Positions 766 through 11,100 of a DNA stretch of 64,000 nt are shown here, in pieces. A program made the translations under genes and the position numbers. The stretch lies in NCBI GenBank assembly GCA_029098225.1, contig JAQXNX010000020.1:1-64000 (forward strand), in the 5' to 3' direction. The notes beneath the pieces were generated by a model, which was not told the DNA's origin, ran no database searches, and was given only the letters and a program-made list of their open reading frames with translations. The number at the start of each line of letters is the position of its first letter. Position 1 is the stretch's first letter. Source of the stretch: Spirochaetales bacterium. Its GTDB lineage: Bacteria > Spirochaetota > Spirochaetia > Treponematales > Treponemataceae.

Positions 766-806
766 AGCCAGGGACAGACCTCAATTGTATGTGTATTTGT
801 ATTTAA

Positions 807-860
807 GCTCGGAATGCTTGGCGTCTTCATTGCAGTTTTGTGTGACGAAGCAATCCGAGC
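807..860. repeat. Imperfect inverted repeat with a two-base bulge (hairpin 2)
   Basis: GCTCGGA (807-813) pairs with TCCGAGC (854-860), TGCTT (815-819) with AAGCA (848-852), and CGTC (822-825) with GACG (844-847). There is one mismatch and two extrahelical G residues, and the loop covers 826-843. Together with hairpin 1 it fills the 300-bp gap between the VOC gene and the convergent gene that ends at 897. I see no gene in this gap. Confidence 0.5.
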
Positions 861-896: not shown

Positions 897-2072
897 TTAG
901 CAAACGATGTAAAGACCTGCTGCGGATGCCTTGTAATCTTTAGGGATTTCGAGACCTTCTACATTCATACCGTACCAGTAGAGTTCCTGTCGGGGACTCA
1001 GGAAGCTGCAGAGCCAGAAGATATATAACTGATCTATTCTTTCTTTTACACCCCGCATCTCAGGAAGCATTATTTCTTCCATTGGTTTTTCTGTTGCTTC
1101 TGCAATTTCTTTTACAATTGGAATTACAGCTCTGGTGATGATTTTCTCCAGCTCAGAAATAACTTCTTCTGTGAAAACAGGAATCATAGGCTTGTAAGTG
1201 TCGTCACGCTTTTCCACAACTCCATGTTTTTCAAAATCTTCCAGAAACTTTTGCTCTTCCTCTGTAAAATCATGCTTTATTCCTTTTACAAGATTCAGAT
1301 AAAAATCAAAATTTCCCCGGGTCAGATAATTATTTCTGCCCATTTCTGAACTTCCCATTCCAATTGCGTTTTCTTCAAAGCTGCATGGGAAAGGTGCGTA
1401 ATCAAAAACGTTGTTGAATCGGTATTGATCATAATGTTGATAATAGGTCGAAGTTTGTGTAAGTCGTCTTTCCAGATGATCATCTTCGATTTTTTCATCA
1501 GCATAATTATATGAAGCGCAAAGTGAATAATCATAATTGGCAGTCCGCCAGTCACTATTGTTGAAGATGACTTCATCAGTTTTGTCAGAAAAGTATGAAC
1601 GGAACTCTGAAATCATACAGTTATCGGTTATGGTATACAAAAACCAGTTTAAGTATGAAAGATCAAAATCATTTCCGTAAAAATCCAGAGTCGCAATTTT
1701 ATCCTTCAAAGAAAAAAGAATGTCATTTATTTTCTTTGGAATCTCGTGCTCTTCGAAAAACTTATAGCCCAAAAGACCAGCCTGGTAATTTTTCTTCAGA
1801 TGAAGCATTGGGAAAAGTGTAAGATATTTTCCGTCAATCTTCTTCATCATTTTTGCATTACAAAAAGAATCAAGTGCGTCCTGAATGTATTCGTAAGGAG
1901 TCTGAAGTGCCTCGGAAAGTTCTTCAACAGATTTTGCCTGGTCATAACAAAGCAAGGCAAGCTGCTGTCTGAAAATACCATTCATCTCGCGCATAGCAGG
2001 AGATGCCCATCCGCAATAAGAAAGCTGGAATTCTGCGGGTGCATAGGAAAGCTGTTTATCTATCTTTTTCAT
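897..2072 (-). CDS. Stand-alone paralogue of the sigma-factor C-terminal extension
   Basis: This 391-residue protein has no named family that I recognise, but it is clearly related to the C-terminal half of the upstream gene product (2086-3735). Both have a winged-helix-like segment (here about residues 35-90) and share the exact heptapeptide FYGNDFD (about 131-137). Both end in a Lys-Ala-Ser-like motif followed by a hydrophobic tail ending in Cys or Cys-Glu. It lacks sigma regions 2 and 4. The start at 2072 is chosen because AAAGGAG lies 8 nt upstream; a longer in-frame start at 2114 would overlap the upstream gene. The two genes are 13 bp apart and surely co-transcribed. It may be a regulator or partner of the sigma protein; this is inference. 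Confidence 0.75.
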   Translation of the reverse strand: MKKIDKQLSYAPAEFQLSYCGWASPAMREMNGIFRQQLALLCYDQAKSVEELSEALQTPYEYIQDALDSFCNAKMMKKIDGKYLTLFPMLHLKKNYQAGLLGYKFFEEHEIPKKINDILFSLKDKIATLDFYGNDFDLSYLNWFLYTITDNCMISEFRSYFSDKTDEVIFNNSDWRTANYDYSLCASYNYADEKIEDDHLERRLTQTSTYYQHYDQYRFNNVFDYAPFPCSFEENAIGMGSSEMGRNNYLTRGNFDFYLNLVKGIKHDFTEEEQKFLEDFEKHGVVEKRDDTYKPMIPVFTEEVISELEKIITRAVIPIVKEIAEATEKPMEEIMLPEMRGVKERIDQLYIFWLCSFLSPRQELYWYGMNVEGLEIPKDYKASAAGLYIVC

Positions 2073-2085
2073 TTTAAAATCTCCT

Positions 2086-3735
2086 TTACTCACAAAGCAA
2101 AACCATAGCTGCACATGAAGCGTTTTTGCCTTCTACAAAACGGACAAGCTTATTATCAATTGCGTACTGTATCAGCATGGAATCTAAGCTCTTGTCGTTT
2201 CCAAGTGGAATGACATGCCAGAAGGAAGCCCACAAAAGATCTTTACGGATATAAGGCAGCACAACTTTTTCCTGTGCTTTGTAAAGTGCATCATAATATT
2301 CTATTGAAAGCTCTTTAAATTTTTCGTGCCAGATTTTGCACCACTTGTCTACCTGCGCAAAAGGGATGACCGGAATTGTTCCCTTGTAGCCGGCCTGAGT
2401 TTTTTTGAGCACACCATTGTTCAGCATGTCTGCAACAAGCATTTCTTCTTTTTCTGAAAGAATCTTCTTCGGATTTTTGATGAGCTCAAGATAAAGGCCT
2501 GTGTTGCCACTGTTGAGCCAGTCAAGTCGATCGAGGTCGAGCTCACATTTGTGCCCGTCTTTTTCATAATGCATTGTGTTGATTGTATTATGAAATTCAA
2601 TATGTCCGTATTCAGGAATGTTGTAAACATTATAATTATAGCCGGGGCCTATCAAAGAAGCTTCTTTCTTAGCAAGGTCTTGGGGCTCATCTTCATACCA
2701 GCCCGAAAGATAAAAGTTTCTCCAGAATCTGTCTGTGAGTCCCTTACCGTATTTTTCGCGAAGATAATCTCCGCCCGCCTTTTTTCCAAACTCTCTGTCC
2801 GAGCGGATTATGAAATATGGAAGAAGATATTCCCAGTCAAAATCATTGCCGTAAAAATTTTCCTTCAAAAGCTCCGCCTTCATGCCATTAAGAATTTCAA
2901 AAAAGCGTTCAGCGATTTTTAAATCCCGGCAAATCTGACGGTCAATTTCTTCTGCCTTTCTACGTACTGACTTTGGAAAAATTGTAAAGTCTGTAAGATA
3001 GTGGCCTTTCTTTTCTTCAAAGAGAACATTCGCCCGAACAAGCTTTGTAATGCTGTCTTCCAAAAAGAGCTGGGGTAGGTCAAGCTGTGACGCAAGCTGG
3101 CTGACAGTCTGACTTTTTTCACGACATGCAAATAAAATTTGTCTGTCTATCAGAGAAGAAATTGCCATCCAGGCTTGATTTGCATCCCCGTAAAACTCAA
3201 GCTCAAAATCGATAATACTTTTTTTCTTTTCAGGTTTTTCTTTTCGATTTTCCATAGTCTCAAAATTCTCCTTAAGATTTTTGCGGGCATCAGATAAGCG
3301 GCTTGTTACTGTACCCGTGGGGAGCTTAAGGGCGGTGGCAATTTCTTTTACACTCTGATTTTTGATGTAGAAGCGCACCAGAATATCTCTGTGAATATTG
3401 GCAAGCTTTGTCATTGATTTTGAAAGCAGCTCCAGTTCTTCCCGCTTGATATAATCTCCAAGTGATTTATCAAAACCAAGAAGGCTGTTTTCCATGTCAT
3501 CAAGACTGATTTTTACCGGAAGTTTTTTTCTGTAAAAATCAACAATCTTGTTATGGGCAATTTGCCAGAAAAGAGCGTAGAAGTTTTCAATCTTTTTTCC
3601 ACTTCGCAAAATCAGCAGGGCATCAACAATGATTTCCTGTGCCAGATCCTGAGCCTCTTCCTTATCTGAAATTTTCTTCCAGCAAAAAAGAAAAGTCTTT
3701 TCCATCAAATCGTCTGTAATTACCTTGTCCACCAT
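2086..3735 (-). CDS. Sigma-70-family (ECF-like) RNA polymerase sigma factor with a long C-terminal domain
   Basis: The N-terminal 160 residues look like a sigma factor. A region-2-like segment (about 8-72, with 'AQDLAQEI..DA' and 'F.ALFWQIAHNKIVDFYRK') is followed by a region-4 helix-turn-helix (about 108-155, 'SVKEIATALKLPTGTVTSRL'). A lysine-rich linker leads into about 380 further residues: a winged-helix-like part (about 192-252), FYGNDFD (about 294-300) and a region with no family I recognise. Typical ECF factors are under 200 residues, so the extension is unusual. Start choice is uncertain: GTG at 3744, ATG at 3735 and GTG at 3732 are all in frame around a GGAG. The gene is followed 13 bp later by a paralogue of its own C-terminal domain. 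A 14-bp palindrome lies upstream. Confidence 0.8.
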   Translation of the reverse strand: MVDKVITDDLMEKTFLFCWKKISDKEEAQDLAQEIIVDALLILRSGKKIENFYALFWQIAHNKIVDFYRKKLPVKISLDDMENSLLGFDKSLGDYIKREELELLSKSMTKLANIHRDILVRFYIKNQSVKEIATALKLPTGTVTSRLSDARKNLKENFETMENRKEKPEKKKSIIDFELEFYGDANQAWMAISSLIDRQILFACREKSQTVSQLASQLDLPQLFLEDSITKLVRANVLFEEKKGHYLTDFTIFPKSVRRKAEEIDRQICRDLKIAERFFEILNGMKAELLKENFYGNDFDWEYLLPYFIIRSDREFGKKAGGDYLREKYGKGLTDRFWRNFYLSGWYEDEPQDLAKKEASLIGPGYNYNVYNIPEYGHIEFHNTINTMHYEKDGHKCELDLDRLDWLNSGNTGLYLELIKNPKKILSEKEEMLVADMLNNGVLKKTQAGYKGTIPVIPFAQVDKWCKIWHEKFKELSIEYYDALYKAQEKVVLPYIRKDLLWASFWHVIPLGNDKSLDSMLIQYAIDNKLVRFVEGKNASCAAMVLLCE

Positions 3736-3771
3736 AAGCTCCACTTTTTGTAATTGTTTCCTCAGAAACTA

Positions 3772-3785
3772 TGTAATCGATTACA
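3772..3785. promoter_or_regulatory. Perfect 14-bp palindrome at the sigma-gene promoter
   Basis: TGTAATCGATTACA is a perfect palindrome 37 bp upstream of the ATG at 3735. On the minus strand it lies just downstream of a TATAAT-like box at 3788-3793, so a bound protein would cover the likely transcription start. It may be an operator for the sigma gene, possibly autoregulatory. Confidence 0.5.
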
Positions 3786-3838
3786 ATATTATAGTCGAAA
3801 AATGGCTGATTTTGTTGGGCAAAAAAGAAAATAAAATT

Positions 3839-4813
3839 TTAGTGAAGTGACATCCTGTTATTTTGTGAAATCATAAAATCGTGTTTTATCTGTAAGAATT
3901 CTTTAAGACGCTCCATGAGGATAAAAAGATTTGCGCGGTCTTCGAATTCGGTGCGATTTTGAGGCAAGGGGAGACTTTTCATTTTGTCATGGATGAGGAC
4001 CAGTTCTTCCAGCAGGGCTTTTACATCATTATCTTTGTGATATTCATTTGAAACTTTTTCGAGAAAATCTGAGAGCAGACCGGCGGTGGATGGCACTGTT
4101 CCAAGGTTGCGGACGACTTTGAACATTTCGTAAAGAATCTTTGTCTGCTTTTCGCGCATCCCAAGATAGAGGGAGTCGAAGGTATCTTTTTTTGAAAACT
4201 GATTGTTGTAATTTTCTTCTGCCTGTTTCTTGGCGATGAAGATGTTTTGATTAAGTGAGACAAAGCAGGAGCCGTCGTAATCAGTAAGAGAGGGATTCTG
4301 AATTCGAAGTGCCATTCTGTGAAGGGCAAGTTTGATTTTGTCATCAGTCTGATTTTTCAATTCTTCAATATAATTTGTCTTCTTGTGAAGTAAAAGATTC
4401 ACCAGGATTCCAAACCCAACTCCAAGAACAAAAAGAAGAACTTCGTTTTTGATTTCAGCAGGACCGGTTTTTCCAAAAGAAAGAAAGTGCGAAATCAAAA
4501 CAGAATCCATTGCCATGGCAGAAATCCATTTGCGCCACTGACAGATAAGAATAAAAATCAAAAGATAAAGAAAAAAGACCGGCACCGTAAAGCCCAACAG
4601 ATTAAAGAGCGTGATGGAAATTACAAGGGCCACTGCAAAGGCAAGAAGACGGGCAAGGGCTGTGCGGAGAGTTTCTTTTTTAGTCGGCTGAACCGAAAGA
4701 ATCGCAACAATTCCAGCCGATACTGCAAAGTCCAGTTTGAGTGCCTGAGCGCAGAGAATTGCAAGCACGGCGGCCACGGTTATTTTTATTGTGTTTGTGA
4801 CGATGGATTTCAT
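3839..4813 (-). CDS. Aromatic acid exporter / FUSC-like membrane protein
   Basis: This 324-residue protein begins with four to six hydrophobic segments in the first 145 residues, including 'TVAAVLAILCAQ', 'SAGIVAILSVQPTKKET', 'LLAFAVALVISITLF' and 'LLFVLGVGFGILVNLLLHKK'. A soluble, charged helical C-terminal half follows. The 'ILSVQPTKKET....ALARL.A' pattern is typical of the ArAE_1/DUF939 aromatic-acid-exporter family, which is related to FUSC transporters. It probably sits in the inner membrane; the substrate is unknown. There is no Shine-Dalgarno, but TATACT (4820-4825) ends exactly 6 nt before the ATG, so the message may be leaderless. Confidence 0.75.
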   Translation of the reverse strand: MKSIVTNTIKITVAAVLAILCAQALKLDFAVSAGIVAILSVQPTKKETLRTALARLLAFAVALVISITLFNLLGFTVPVFFLYLLIFILICQWRKWISAMAMDSVLISHFLSFGKTGPAEIKNEVLLFVLGVGFGILVNLLLHKKTNYIEELKNQTDDKIKLALHRMALRIQNPSLTDYDGSCFVSLNQNIFIAKKQAEENYNNQFSKKDTFDSLYLGMREKQTKILYEMFKVVRNLGTVPSTAGLLSDFLEKVSNEYHKDNDVKALLEELVLIHDKMKSLPLPQNRTEFEDRANLFILMERLKEFLQIKHDFMISQNNRMSLH

Positions 4814-5980: not shown

Positions 5981-6115
5981 GCGCAAGGGATTGTAGCCAC
6001 GCCGAAGGCGGCCACCGCAAGCGAGTGAACTAACGTTAGTTAGTGAACGAGTGCGGAGGCTGGAGCGATAGCGGAATGGCGGAAAGCCCGACCGCCGCTT
6101 GCGGCGGTTGCGCCC
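5981..6115 (+). repeat. Structured dispersed repeat, copy B (inverted partner of 7992-8135)
   Basis: This GC-rich sequence matches the reverse complement of 7992-8135 over nearly its whole length, including 'gccacgccgaaggcggcc' and 'gcggaggctggagcga'. It holds a perfect 14-bp palindrome, AACTAACGTTAGTT (6028-6041), and ends in a hairpin with arms 6091-6096 and 6103-6108. The terminal hairpin has a different sequence but the same position as in the other copy. The repeat separates the XRE gene from the Spx-like gene. An apparent N-terminal extension of the latter through the repeat is not believed. Confidence 0.8.
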
Positions 6116-6705: not shown

Positions 6706-7983
6706 ATGAAAATCGAAACAAAAGTTTTACACTCAGGCTATAAGCCGGAAAATGGCGGTCCTGGAACTATTCCTATCGTTCAGAGTACTACATACCGCTT
6801 TGACAGCTGCGACCACGTTGCGGCTCTTTTTGATAAGCCGACAGAATACATGTATTCACGTTTTGCAAACCCAACCTGCGATGCAGTTGAAAAAAAGATT
6901 GCAGACCTGGAAGGTGGCGTTGGCTGTATGCTTACCAGCTCTGGTCAGGCAGCAAGCCTTCTTTCTGTTTTGAATCTTTGTTCTGCAGGCGACAGCTTTA
7001 TTGCTTCTGCTTCGATTTATGGCGGAACAATCAACCTCTTTGGCTTTACTCTTAAGAAGCTCGGTATTGAATGTATCTGGGTTGATGTTGATGCCAGCTA
7101 TGAAGAAATTTGCAAGGCAATCAAGCCTAATACAAAATGTATTTTTGGTGAGACTCTTGCAAATCCTGCCCTTACAGTTTTTGATTTTGAAACCTGGGCA
7201 AAGGCTGCTCACGACAACAATCTTCCTCTTATCGTAGATAACACCTTTGCAACTCCGGTTCTCTGCCGTCCATTCGAGTGGGGCGCAGACATTGTAGTTC
7301 ATTCAACAACAAAATATATGGACGGTCACGCAGTTCAGGGTGGCGGTTGTATTGTTGATTCAGGAAACTTTGACTGGGAGTCTGCCTATAGGAAGACCGG
7401 CAAGTTTGCTGATATGGTTGAGCCTGACGAAAGCTATCATGGACTTTGCTATGTAAAAGAGTTCGGAAAAGCTGCTTATATCATTAAAGCCCGCACTCAG
7501 CTTATGCGAGACTTCGGCTGCTATCCTGCCGCTCAGAGTGCTTTCTATCTGAACATGGGTTTGGAAACACTTCCAGTCCGCATGGAACGCTACTGCCAGA
7601 ATGCCCGCAAGGTTGCCGAGTTCTTTAAGACAAGCGACAAAATTGCTAAGGTTACATATCCTGGACTCCCTGGCGACAAGTATTACGAGCGCGCACAGAA
7701 GTATCTTCCAGACGGAACCTGTGGCGTTATTTCTATCAGCATTAAGGGTGGCCGTTCGGCAGCCGTTCGTTTTATGGATGCTTTGAAATTGGCCTGCGAC
7801 GAAGTTCACGTTGCCGATATCCGCACCTGCGTTCTTCATCCGGCTTCTGCAACTCACCGCCAGCTTACAGACGAACAGTTAGTTGCTGCCGGAATTGACG
7901 GTGGTATGGTTCGCGTTTCAGTCGGTCTCGAAAATGTTGAAGATATAATTGAAGACCTTAAGGGTGGTCTTGCTGCTGTTTAA
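6706..7983 (+). CDS. metY: O-acetylhomoserine sulfhydrylase (PLP-dependent Cys/Met metabolism enzyme)
   Basis: This 425-residue protein is a full-length Cys/Met-metabolism PLP enzyme. Visible signatures are 'TIPIVQSTTYRF', 'YSRFANPTCDAVEKKIADLE', the PLP aspartate in 'LIVDNTFATP' (about D178) and the Schiff-base lysine in 'VVHSTTKYMDGHA' (about K203). 'HPASATHRQLTDEQL' and 'GMVRVSVGLENVEDIIEDL' close the C-terminal domain. The length and the 'GYKPENGGPGTIPIVQSTTY' start fit O-acetyl-L-homoserine aminocarboxypropyltransferase, which makes homocysteine from O-acetylhomoserine and sulfide in the cytoplasm. Methionine gamma-lyase is the main alternative. The start at 6706 is chosen over an in-frame TTG at 6688 because AGAGG precedes it. 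Confidence 0.9.
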   Translation: MKIETKVLHSGYKPENGGPGTIPIVQSTTYRFDSCDHVAALFDKPTEYMYSRFANPTCDAVEKKIADLEGGVGCMLTSSGQAASLLSVLNLCSAGDSFIASASIYGGTINLFGFTLKKLGIECIWVDVDASYEEICKAIKPNTKCIFGETLANPALTVFDFETWAKAAHDNNLPLIVDNTFATPVLCRPFEWGADIVVHSTTKYMDGHAVQGGGCIVDSGNFDWESAYRKTGKFADMVEPDESYHGLCYVKEFGKAAYIIKARTQLMRDFGCYPAAQSAFYLNMGLETLPVRMERYCQNARKVAEFFKTSDKIAKVTYPGLPGDKYYERAQKYLPDGTCGVISISIKGGRSAAVRFMDALKLACDEVHVADIRTCVLHPASATHRQLTDEQLVAAGIDGGMVRVSVGLENVEDIIEDLKGGLAAV

Positions 7984-7991
7984 TATAATTC

Positions 7992-8135
7992 GGGCGTAAC
8001 CCGTCGCACCTTCAGTGCGCCGGGTCGGGCGTTCCGCCATTCCGCTTTCGCTCCAGCCTCCGCACTCATTCACTAACTAACGTTAGTTCATTCGTTTGCG
8101 TGGGCCGCCTTCGGCGTGGCTTCATGCCCTTACGC
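7992..8135 (-). repeat. Structured dispersed repeat, copy C (inverted partner of 5981-6115)
   Basis: The reverse complement of this stretch aligns with 5981-6115. The same 14-bp palindrome AACTAACGTTAGTT is at 8075-8088. The terminal hairpin is ACCCG (7999-8003) with CGGGT (8021-8025) and CGCAC (8005-8009) with GTGCG (8015-8019). It lies directly after metY and before the convergent 8157-13997 gene, where it may also work as a terminator. Confidence 0.8.
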
Positions 8136-8156
8136 ATTTTTATTCATTCTTGAATT

Positions 8157-11100
8157 TTATTTTACAATCATTACTTTTCTGGATTCATCTATATCGTTAC
8201 CATTTACACGAATAAAATAAATTCCGCGTGCAACAGATTTTCCATTTTTGTTTTTTCCATCCCAGGTAAAATAATGTTCGCCTTCAGAAAGTCTTCCATG
8301 AGAAAGATATTTTACAACATTTCCATCGGGTGTCATAACAATTACGTTCAAGTTTCCTTCCTGAGGCATATTAATTTTTACAACACATTCTTCATCTTTT
8401 TCCGGATTAATAACATTGTTTAGAATTGTTACTCCTCCACGCTGATTTTTTATTCCCTTAAATTTTATAGACCATAAATCCAGCGAAAGGATATCGGAAT
8501 CATTTTCTAAACGAATTGCAAATAAAGGTAATTTTTCATTAACTGAATATCCTGTTCCAGATGGATTTAAAACAGGAGCAGAACAAAAACTAATTTCCTG
8601 AGCTAAGGCTGTATCACCGTTAGTAATTGTAAACAGAAATTGAACCTCTCCATTTTTGCTCCATTGTGTAACTTTATCTTTTGAAGGTGAAACAATTATC
8701 TGATTTGAATTTCCAGAATTTTTATAATCAGCCTTTAATGCAGAAAGTGTAGAGTTAATTGCAGGATCAATATTTTTGTCGCAAAGTGCACGGAAGATTG
8801 AAGTTGTAAATGAAGTTCCTGTAATTTTTGGAAGCCAGATTCTAAGCGAAAGATTTAAATCTTCATTTATCTGGCGGGAAACTGCATCAGCATCGGGCGC
8901 TGAACAAAAATAAGTTTTTATTCCGTAATTGCGTTCACCGGTTACAGAATCGGTTGAAGCAAAAATTGAATTTGAGTTGCTTCCGTCATTCAATGAAGCA
9001 ATTAAATCAAAGCTTTCGTTAAGCGGCAGTGTTCCAAAATTCTGCTGTTCTCTTCCAAAGTCCCTTGCTGTCCATGGATTTTCAAGCGACGATTCATTTC
9101 CAAAGTCCAGTGAGTTTGGTGCTGCAAATTGTGGATTAACGGCATTAATTGCAAAGTCAGAAATTGCATGTGCTGTATTCATCTGAATATAATTTCCAGT
9201 TTCATCCTGAATAAAAGTAACCCAGCTGGAAATATTTGTAAACGGATCATTAGATTGTCCATATCCTGCAGGATTTATAACGCGCACATAATATTTTTGA
9301 AGATCTTCCAAATTAATTTCGCGGTTTGTTGTAAGAGTAATTTTTGTAAAACTGATTCCACTGGAATTACTTCTTATATGAGAAATTTCTGCAGGAATAC
9401 TTGCATTAATCTGTAGATCGTTTGCTGCAGTTGCAACTGTTGCTGTACCAGAATCATCTATTGTAATTATTTCAAAACATCCTGGAATAAATTCACTGTA
9501 TGATTGACTTGTAGTATCACTAAGATGACTTGTTGAACTTGCACCGCTTGTTGAGTAATGTACCAAAGAAGCATCTGTTAAAATCTTTTTTACAAAAATC
9601 ATATTGATTTTATTTTTAGCAAGTGGGCTTAAAGTTATATCAAAGGAAGGTGGAGTTTTATCCAGCGTTCTGATTGTTACTGTATCAAGCTTATTACCGG
9701 CTAAATCTGTTATTGCATATGTTGAATTTTCTGCATATGAAACTGTAAATGTAGAGTTTACAGGTAGCGTTGTATCAGAGAGTCCCATTGTAAAATAAAG
9801 ACCTTCATGTTCGCTTGTCGTATGATACGGTGAAGAAGAACCTGTAAAAAATGGAGATGAAGTTCCCAGCGTTATTGATGCGAAGTTTTGTCCAGAAGAG
9901 GAAGTAAGAGAATCAACGACTCCGTAAGAAAATGCGCCATTGTTGTAAGCTTCAATTAAAGTGCTTACACGAATGCCACCTGTTTGTGATGATCCAGAAA
10001 TCCCTTTACTTCCACCAAATATATCTGCCGCATAAGAATTTGCATTTACTAAAGATGCACCTCCTTGTGAGCACCAGCCAATTCCACTTCGCCAATAAGG
10101 TTCACTTGAATTGTAAACAGGATCGTTATCAAAAAAGTGAAATTCAATTCTATCCAAAGTTGATCCTGAACCAGGAACATTTGCAAGAGCTTCTGCCTCA
10201 TAAATGCCGGAAGGTCTTGTCCAGGATGCATCTGTATTTAATTTTGCAAAAACAGGTTTTGAAACATCCCAAGGTCCGTAAATGCCAGAAGCCGTAGACT
10301 CAACAGATAACGACGATTTTTTTACTTTTGAACTCTGGCCGTTTCCTTTCATGTCTTTTATAAGATTATTGGTCCATGGAGAACTTGTAGTCCCCGGAAG
10401 AGAAACAGTGCCAGCAGGAGAAATTGCACTTTCAATATATCCAACCCACTTTTTATATGCTTGTCCTTTATAATTTTCTGTTCCTGCTGTCAAACCAGCG
10501 ATGGAAATTCTTAACGAACGTTCGTTAGTTCTATACAATGCATTAACATATTTGTTATTCAATCCATTTTGTTTTGTATGAATTTTTCCGCTTGCAATTG
10601 TTATTCCAAGCCCCGCGAATGTAAGATTACCACTTGCAGAAACATCGCCGGTTAAAGCTCCGAATGAATCTGTAACAGCAACATTTTCTACAGCTTGAAA
10701 GCTTCCGCTTGTTCCGTGTGCTCCATTATAAGCAGGAAGCCATACATCACAAACGGAATTATCTTCAGAACCAAAATTAACAGGTTCGCTATAAATGAAT
10801 TCTATGAAATTATGGGCATCATACGAATGCTGACTTGAAGCGCCAGTTCCCGCAGAATATTCTTCATGAACTTCCTGACCTGTTTTTACTGCAACTAAAA
10901 CCGGCGGACATTCATCAATTGTGTCTGTATAAATTCCTTCGGCACCGGTTCCGCCTGTGCTGTAATGCTTACTGCGTTTCCCCCATAAATCAGTTACAAA
11001 ATATGATTTTTTTCCTGTCGAAGTATTTCCATTAAATGCTGTATGCCCGGCACGTAGTAATTCTATTGTCGGCAGTACAGTTCTATGGGTTCCTGTTGCA

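Follow-up and report, generated by a model that had tools for sequence, protein, structure and literature searches.

A Treponema ECF Sigma Factor With a Winged-Helix Extension and a Free Paralogue of That Extension: A Candidate Autoregulated Two-Gene Unit

The Sigma Gene and Its Free Paralogue

The window, meaning the whole stretch of 64,000 nucleotides that was analysed, is a contig end of a Treponema genome whose close relatives include T. bryantii. Two adjacent genes, referred to here as A and B, lie near its beginning (Table 1). Gene A encodes an ECF-type sigma protein, which scores 59 bits with the NCBIfam model sigma70-ECF (cut-off 42.9) and 34.6 with the Pfam model Sigma70_r4 (cut-off 24.1). 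The match to Sigma70_r2 is marginal, 20.8 in one scan and 24.2 in another, at a cut-off of 24. Judging from the orthologues, GTG 3732 is most likely the start of A rather than ATG 3735, because that ATG is not conserved and is replaced by ACG, GCG or ACA in most of them. Beyond the sigma part, the protein continues for about 385 residues, which are designated the C-terminal domain (CTD).

Gene B encodes a free homologue of the CTD. Its start is ATG 2072, and the GTG 2114 assigned mechanically in the list of open reading frames is not its first codon. Aligned end to end with the CTD of A by BLASTP, B is identical at 87 of 385 positions (23%, E 2e-20), and a profile-profile comparison of the two gives a probability of 99 over 357 columns. 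An earlier note on this DNA had read the locus as a sigma protein with about 380 extra residues followed by a stand-alone copy of that extension, and the ECF profile matches and the homology over the whole CTD bear out both parts of that description.

Table 1. Features of the A/B locus, with positions in the window
Feature	Position	Strand	Remark
Promoter of A, ECF-like, CCAAC-N16-CGACTATAAT	3788..3818	minus	blocks invariant in 8/8 loci
14-bp palindrome TGTAATCGATTACA, candidate operator	3772..3785		just downstream of the -10 block
Gene A, ECF sigma factor plus CTD	2086..3732	minus	start GTG 3732
Sigma part of A	3256..3732	minus	sigma2 and sigma4, no sigma3
AAGGAG, Shine-Dalgarno-like, before the joint ATG of A	3268..3273	minus	12 nt before the ATG
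In-frame ATG at the sigma/CTD joint	3253..3255	minus	predicted internal start; corresponds to codon 1 of B
Predicted free CTD from A by internal initiation	2086..3255	minus	predicted product
First winged helix, CTD of A	2974..3183	minus	
FYGNDFD in A	2836..2856	minus	
Probable second winged helix, CTD of A	2362..2502	minus	AlphaFold2, local pLDDT about 80-92, low overall confidence
AAGGAG, ribosome-binding site of B	2081..2086	minus	kept in 7/7 B genes compared
Gene B, free CTD homologue	897..2072	minus	391 aa, start ATG 2072
Winged helix of B	1800..2012	minus	
FYGNDFD in B	1662..1682	minus	

Downstream of B, 71 bp of the window (790-860) are identical to the 3' end of a MATE transporter gene of loci L047 and L044. 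The MATE gene is convergent to B in those two loci, and only the 71-bp remnant is present in the window. Additionally, a G+C-rich sequence of 26 bp occurs at 603-628 and, in inverted orientation, at 6062-6087; the copy at 603-628 adjoins a glyoxalase-family gene (100-555). This inverted sequence looks like the end of a cassette or mobile element.

Fold of the C-Terminal Domain

The first part of the CTD is a winged helix of the ArsR/MarR/PadR type, as indicated by matches of both profile and fold. The Pfam model HTH_5 is matched above the cut-off in relatives of type C (see below), while the Pfam matches in A and B themselves are below it. A profile of the family matches AdcR with an E of 4e-5, and residues 21-91 of the model of B resemble DNA-binding regulators with a Z of about 10 over 57-85 residues. 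Confidence in the AlphaFold2 models is low, with mean pLDDT values of 61.5 for B and 59.7 for A, and a Foldseek search of the PDB returned nothing significant for the whole chain (E above 0.2). In the last third of the CTD, the model tentatively suggests a second winged helix. The motif FYGNDFD is located between the first winged helix and this tentative second one and is specific to A and B, with the last D variable among orthologues; distant relatives retain only parts of it, for example FYGSD or YIPGGN. Both the winged-helix-like part and the FYGNDFD motif had been ascribed to the two proteins in the earlier note, and both attributions hold.

Beyond the ArsR/MarR-like winged helix, no Pfam or NCBIfam model covered the CTD in scans of A, B and their relatives. 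Weak Pfam or NCBIfam matches, among them TrmB, YxeA, DUF1803 and AdcR, were considered for the family of the CTD and rejected because they fall below cut-off. The possibility that the CTD would prove to be a known, well-studied family, which would have spoken against the earlier reading, is thus not borne out by any curated model. The same scans found no SnoaL-like, TPR or Cys-rich extension domain in A or B.

Distribution and Inheritance of the Pair

The pair is present in some Treponema, mostly from the rumen. A search of 195 family genomes with the CTD of A found orthologues of A and B together in eight, and a scan of one genome per species (84,980 species) gave 12 loci, 11 of them in organisms named Treponema or Spirochaetia and the twelfth, at 84% identity, in an uncultured bacterium. 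Two of these 12 loci are truncated by a contig end and were excluded from the count of gene order; in the other ten and in the window, A is directly followed by B (11/11 resolvable close loci). A wider profile search covered 274 family genomes, of which 38 were positive, and yielded two further pairs of much greater divergence (L147 and L155), in which a sigma-CTD gene is immediately followed by a free CTD gene. The pairing noted earlier at this one locus is therefore kept in relatives, with both genes together at each of the 13 loci that could be resolved (11 close and two divergent).

In a maximum-likelihood tree of the CTDs, the sigma-linked domains of A and the free domains of B form two sister clades with supports of 100/99 and 100/97 to 100/99, and the branching order of L147, L155 and L052 is identical in both. 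These mirrored clades indicate a single old duplication that was inherited as a unit. Neighbouring genes differ between the loci, indicating that the two genes themselves constitute this unit. Moreover, both are under purifying selection, with dN/dS of 0.07-0.25 for A and 0.04-0.24 for B. The low identity between A and B would, taken alone, permit B to be a redundant and decaying duplicate of the CTD. This is very improbable, however, because it is contradicted by the constraint across B, B is found in every resolvable A-type locus, and the duplication is old.

Sigma-CTD fusions without a partner are common in Treponema. The other fusion subfamilies in Treponema genomes, labelled types C to H, have no adjacent gene for a free copy. 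One further relative is encoded by pRUMAL02, a plasmid of Ruminococcus albus. The CTD of this protein can be aligned with B, and the two share LSYAPxE at their beginning, a few residues past the Met. Among viral contigs, plasmids and phages, this was the only relative of the CTD found, the phage matches being to the sigma part only.

Several observations were made on individual fusion loci. The copies in L110 (G086:C21), L115 (G580:C49) and L156 (G573:C38) are broken by internal stops or frame breaks, which indicates that such fusion genes are lost at times. The E-type fusions of L142 and L143 have the same downstream genes, the first of which starts MRIAICEDDRPSRDYEANLI and appears response-regulator-like by eye. 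Two G-type fusions (L148, 3269-4705; L149, 271-1707) adjoin similar 478-aa proteins of unknown kind with a KPTYKVGEYF motif, possibly a target or partner of the fusion. In L137, a C-type and a D-type fusion (2331-4013 and 7970-9712) lie within 6 kb of each other, and near-identical open frames of 221 and 222 aa are found between them.

Promoter and Palindrome

Upstream of A, three elements show no variation in 8/8 loci, namely the blocks CCAACAAAA and CGACTATAATA and the palindrome TGTAATCGATTACA. The spacer and nearly all of the sequence further upstream vary among the same eight loci, which include L052, L050, L051 and L053, where the upstream genes differ. The -35 block of L052 is TCCAACAAAA. 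A sequence of the kind expected at an autoregulated ECF promoter, with an AAC -35 core and a CG -10 core 16-17 nt apart, is conserved in front of A. The arrangement AAC-N16-CGAC is a layout of ECF promoters, such as those of sigma-W of Bacillus subtilis. A sigma-70-type promoter was rejected, since a scan for one gave none at the site, although the TATAAT itself is perfect.

In each pair-bearing genome the exact palindrome is present as a single copy, only at the A/B locus; the G131 copy is situated at the end of a contig, and G134, whose contig begins inside A, lacks it. Four genomes without the pair do not have the palindrome. The palindrome that the earlier note had placed at the promoter therefore proves to be conserved as well as single-copy. 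The exact promoter pattern is likewise confined to the A/B locus in pair-bearing genomes, apart from single stray matches in G090 and G561. Of the two divergent pairs, L155 has kept the promoter, with only an imperfect repeat at the site of the palindrome; in L147 the promoter is a related one and the palindrome is absent.

A regulon search with relaxed promoter patterns returned scattered matches with one mismatch, mostly at or below the level of a reversed-pattern control. The matches that recurred were rejected as targets because their spacers are nearly identical and one is also present in a genome without the pair, so this search of promoter patterns found no target genes of the circuit. 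No Rfam match was obtained within the window.

The C- and D-type genes have conserved promoter blocks of their own, with a similar layout. In all eight C-type genes (L011, L012, L014, L016, L025, L026), perfect palindromes of 10-14 bp are located 29-31 nt before the ATG. These vary in sequence (CAAATAATTATTTG, AAACTATAGTTT, CAAACCGGTTTG), and with the letters changing it is the symmetry that seems to be kept.

A Predicted Internal Start in the Fused Genes

An in-frame ATG is present at the joint between sigma part and CTD in 36/36 of the fusions examined, despite linkers that differ between subfamilies. It recurs across subfamilies that are less than 20% identical, although these are drawn mostly from one genus and are not fully independent. 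Upstream of this ATG, inside the last sigma codons, is a Shine-Dalgarno-like run, which reads, for example, AAAGGAAGG or AAGGAGGG in the C types, AAGGAG in A and AGGGAGGG in R. albus. The codons AAG GAG of A are invariant in nine orthologues, and their distance of 12 nt from the ATG is longer than usual.

For pairing with the 16S tail, the median energy is -7.8 kcal/mol at the joints and -2.3 kcal/mol at 453 other internal Mets; values at or below -6 kcal/mol are reached by 92% of the joints and 6% of the other Mets. The p of 8e-22 for this comparison overstates the case because the genes are related. The comparison also carries some selection, since the CTD profile served to place the joint and, in types D, G and H, where Mets are clustered, the one beside the CTD was picked. 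Resampling of synonymous codons indicates that codon choice adds modestly to the pairing, with p between 0.01 and 0.5 per gene and a Fisher p of 0.0012 for 12 representatives.

A test of synonymous sites is free of the bias from Met choice for A and C, where most sequences have a single nearby Met. Across codons -9 to +7 at the joint ATG of A, synonymous variation is 0.039, compared with a mean of 0.298, and 0/496 windows are lower. The same stretch in C gives 0.273 compared with 0.464, again with no lower window (0/503), and that in D gives 0.190 compared with 0.390, with all but 1.4% of windows higher. In a smaller set of C sequences, synonymous variation is lowest at the joint and at the true gene start. 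The joint thus combines a Shine-Dalgarno-like run and an in-frame start codon with selection at the nucleotide level. Low synonymous variation of this kind is the trace expected of a second translation start; it would also arise from an internal promoter or a protein-binding site there.

From these conserved start signals, the fused genes are predicted to make a free CTD as well, and they probably do so. B would then be a duplicated, gene-encoded version of the internally started CTD. Alternatively, the joint ATG and the run before it could be relics of an ancient fusion or a by-product of a Lys/Glu/Gly-rich sigma4 end, in which case the fused genes would make no free CTD and A and B would represent an ordinary duplication. 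The ends of ECF sigma4 are indeed Lys/Glu-rich, and the resampling signal is modest per gene. A relic or by-product would not, however, lead one to expect synonymous variation below that of every other window in A and C and of nearly every one in D, nor the persistence of the ATG among such dissimilar subfamilies, and this explanation is considered somewhat unlikely. On balance, it appears a little more probable than not that the fusions are a widespread, undescribed class of ECF genes with two products, the free form of which was duplicated into B in one lineage and, together with the palindrome, became a dedicated autoregulatory circuit.

A Possible Autoregulatory Circuit

The two genes may together make up a self-contained unit that regulates itself, the CTDs, whether free or fused to sigma, acting on the promoter of A; this model is drawn from sequence comparison and is held tentatively. 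Through its sigma part, A most likely recruits RNA polymerase to the ECF-type promoter in front of its own gene. The winged-helix CTD would be supplied both fused, in A, and free, as B and probably also as the shorter product of A. These CTD units would pair, either between A and B or between two copies of B, and the paired CTDs would bind the palindrome that covers the presumed transcription start. Once bound, they would damp the loop driven by sigma until the CTD senses a signal that alters this. Counting against the model are the imperfect or absent palindrome of the divergent pairs L155 and L147, the long Shine-Dalgarno spacing in A, the low confidence of the structural models and the finding of no target genes. 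The suggestion of the earlier note, that a regulatory device is formed by a sigma factor together with its own extension in free form, is strengthened in part, namely by the unsplit pair, the purifying selection and the single-copy palindrome at an ECF-like promoter.

Two other arrangements of the same components were weighed. B could act by protein contact as an anti-sigma factor or competitor, pairing with the CTD or the sigma part of A and holding sigma inactive, with the palindrome serving as a site for A alone or for a different regulator. Strict one-to-one co-inheritance of B with A is consistent with such a role, as is the inhibition of the sigma part of ECF41 proteins by their own extensions (PMC8999054). 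Because it leaves unexplained both a single-copy palindrome as conserved as the promoter and a winged helix under constraint in the free protein, this arrangement, though a serious rival, is considered less likely. Slightly less likely again, but likewise a serious rival, is an activating role for A and B as an obligate hetero-complex, with B serving as a co-sensor or stabiliser instead of a repressor. Such a complex would fit the homology over the full length and the co-inheritance of A and B, and it has parallels in an endolysin whose full protein and free C-terminal domain must assemble for activity (PMC9430671) and in ECF42, whose extension is essential for activity (PMC8999054). The unpaired fusions, however, do without a partner gene, although an internally started CTD could stand in for it.

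Comparison With Known Systems

At least 26 ECF groups possess extensions, 15 of which are unstudied according to a 2022 review (PMC8999054), and the control of ECF factors with large extensions is open for most groups. ECF41, ECF42 and ECF238 are similar to A in that an ECF core is joined to a cytoplasmic extension without an adjacent transmembrane anti-sigma factor. The extension of A differs from theirs in its length of about 385 aa and in beginning with a winged helix, whereas those of ECF41, ECF42 and ECF238 are SnoaL, TPR and Cys-rich, respectively. Moreover, in the system of A a free paralogue is the next gene of the operon, and the joint carries start signals. The review (PMC8999054) describes none of these three features, the winged-helix-led extension of this size, the free paralogue and the joint start signals, and no description of a pair of sigma factor and free CTD or of internal starts in sigma genes was found in the open-licence literature. 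The model protein of ECF262 is from R. albus and has an extension of unstudied mechanism (PMC8999054). The relative on pRUMAL02 may belong to this group, a comparison made only by the organism of the model; unlike A and B, the R. albus fusion gene has no free paralogue listed beside it.

A further comparison is with winged-helix repressors of the ArsR/MarR/PadR type that bind a palindrome at their own promoter; the likeness of the present system to them lies in the winged helix of A and B and in the palindrome over the predicted transcription start. Compared with these repressors, the protein is five times longer, comes fused to a sigma factor or paired with one, and shows neither a detectable metal site nor another known ligand domain.

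In phage endolysin genes, an internal in-frame start gives rise to a free C-terminal domain able to assemble with the full protein (PMC9430671). Endolysins are phage lysis enzymes, unrelated to the fused sigma genes in sequence and function, and their second product is experimentally proven, whereas that of the sigma genes is predicted. If the fused genes yield both sigma-CTD and free CTD, a reading of one protein per gene misses a regulator, and the ratio of fused to free form would provide a simple and testable control knob. The A/B pair represents a natural experiment in this respect, because a separate gene encodes the free form and the promoter carries a palindrome of its own that occurs once per genome. 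One promoter and two proteins therefore suffice for testing both models, that of self-regulation and that of the free domain.
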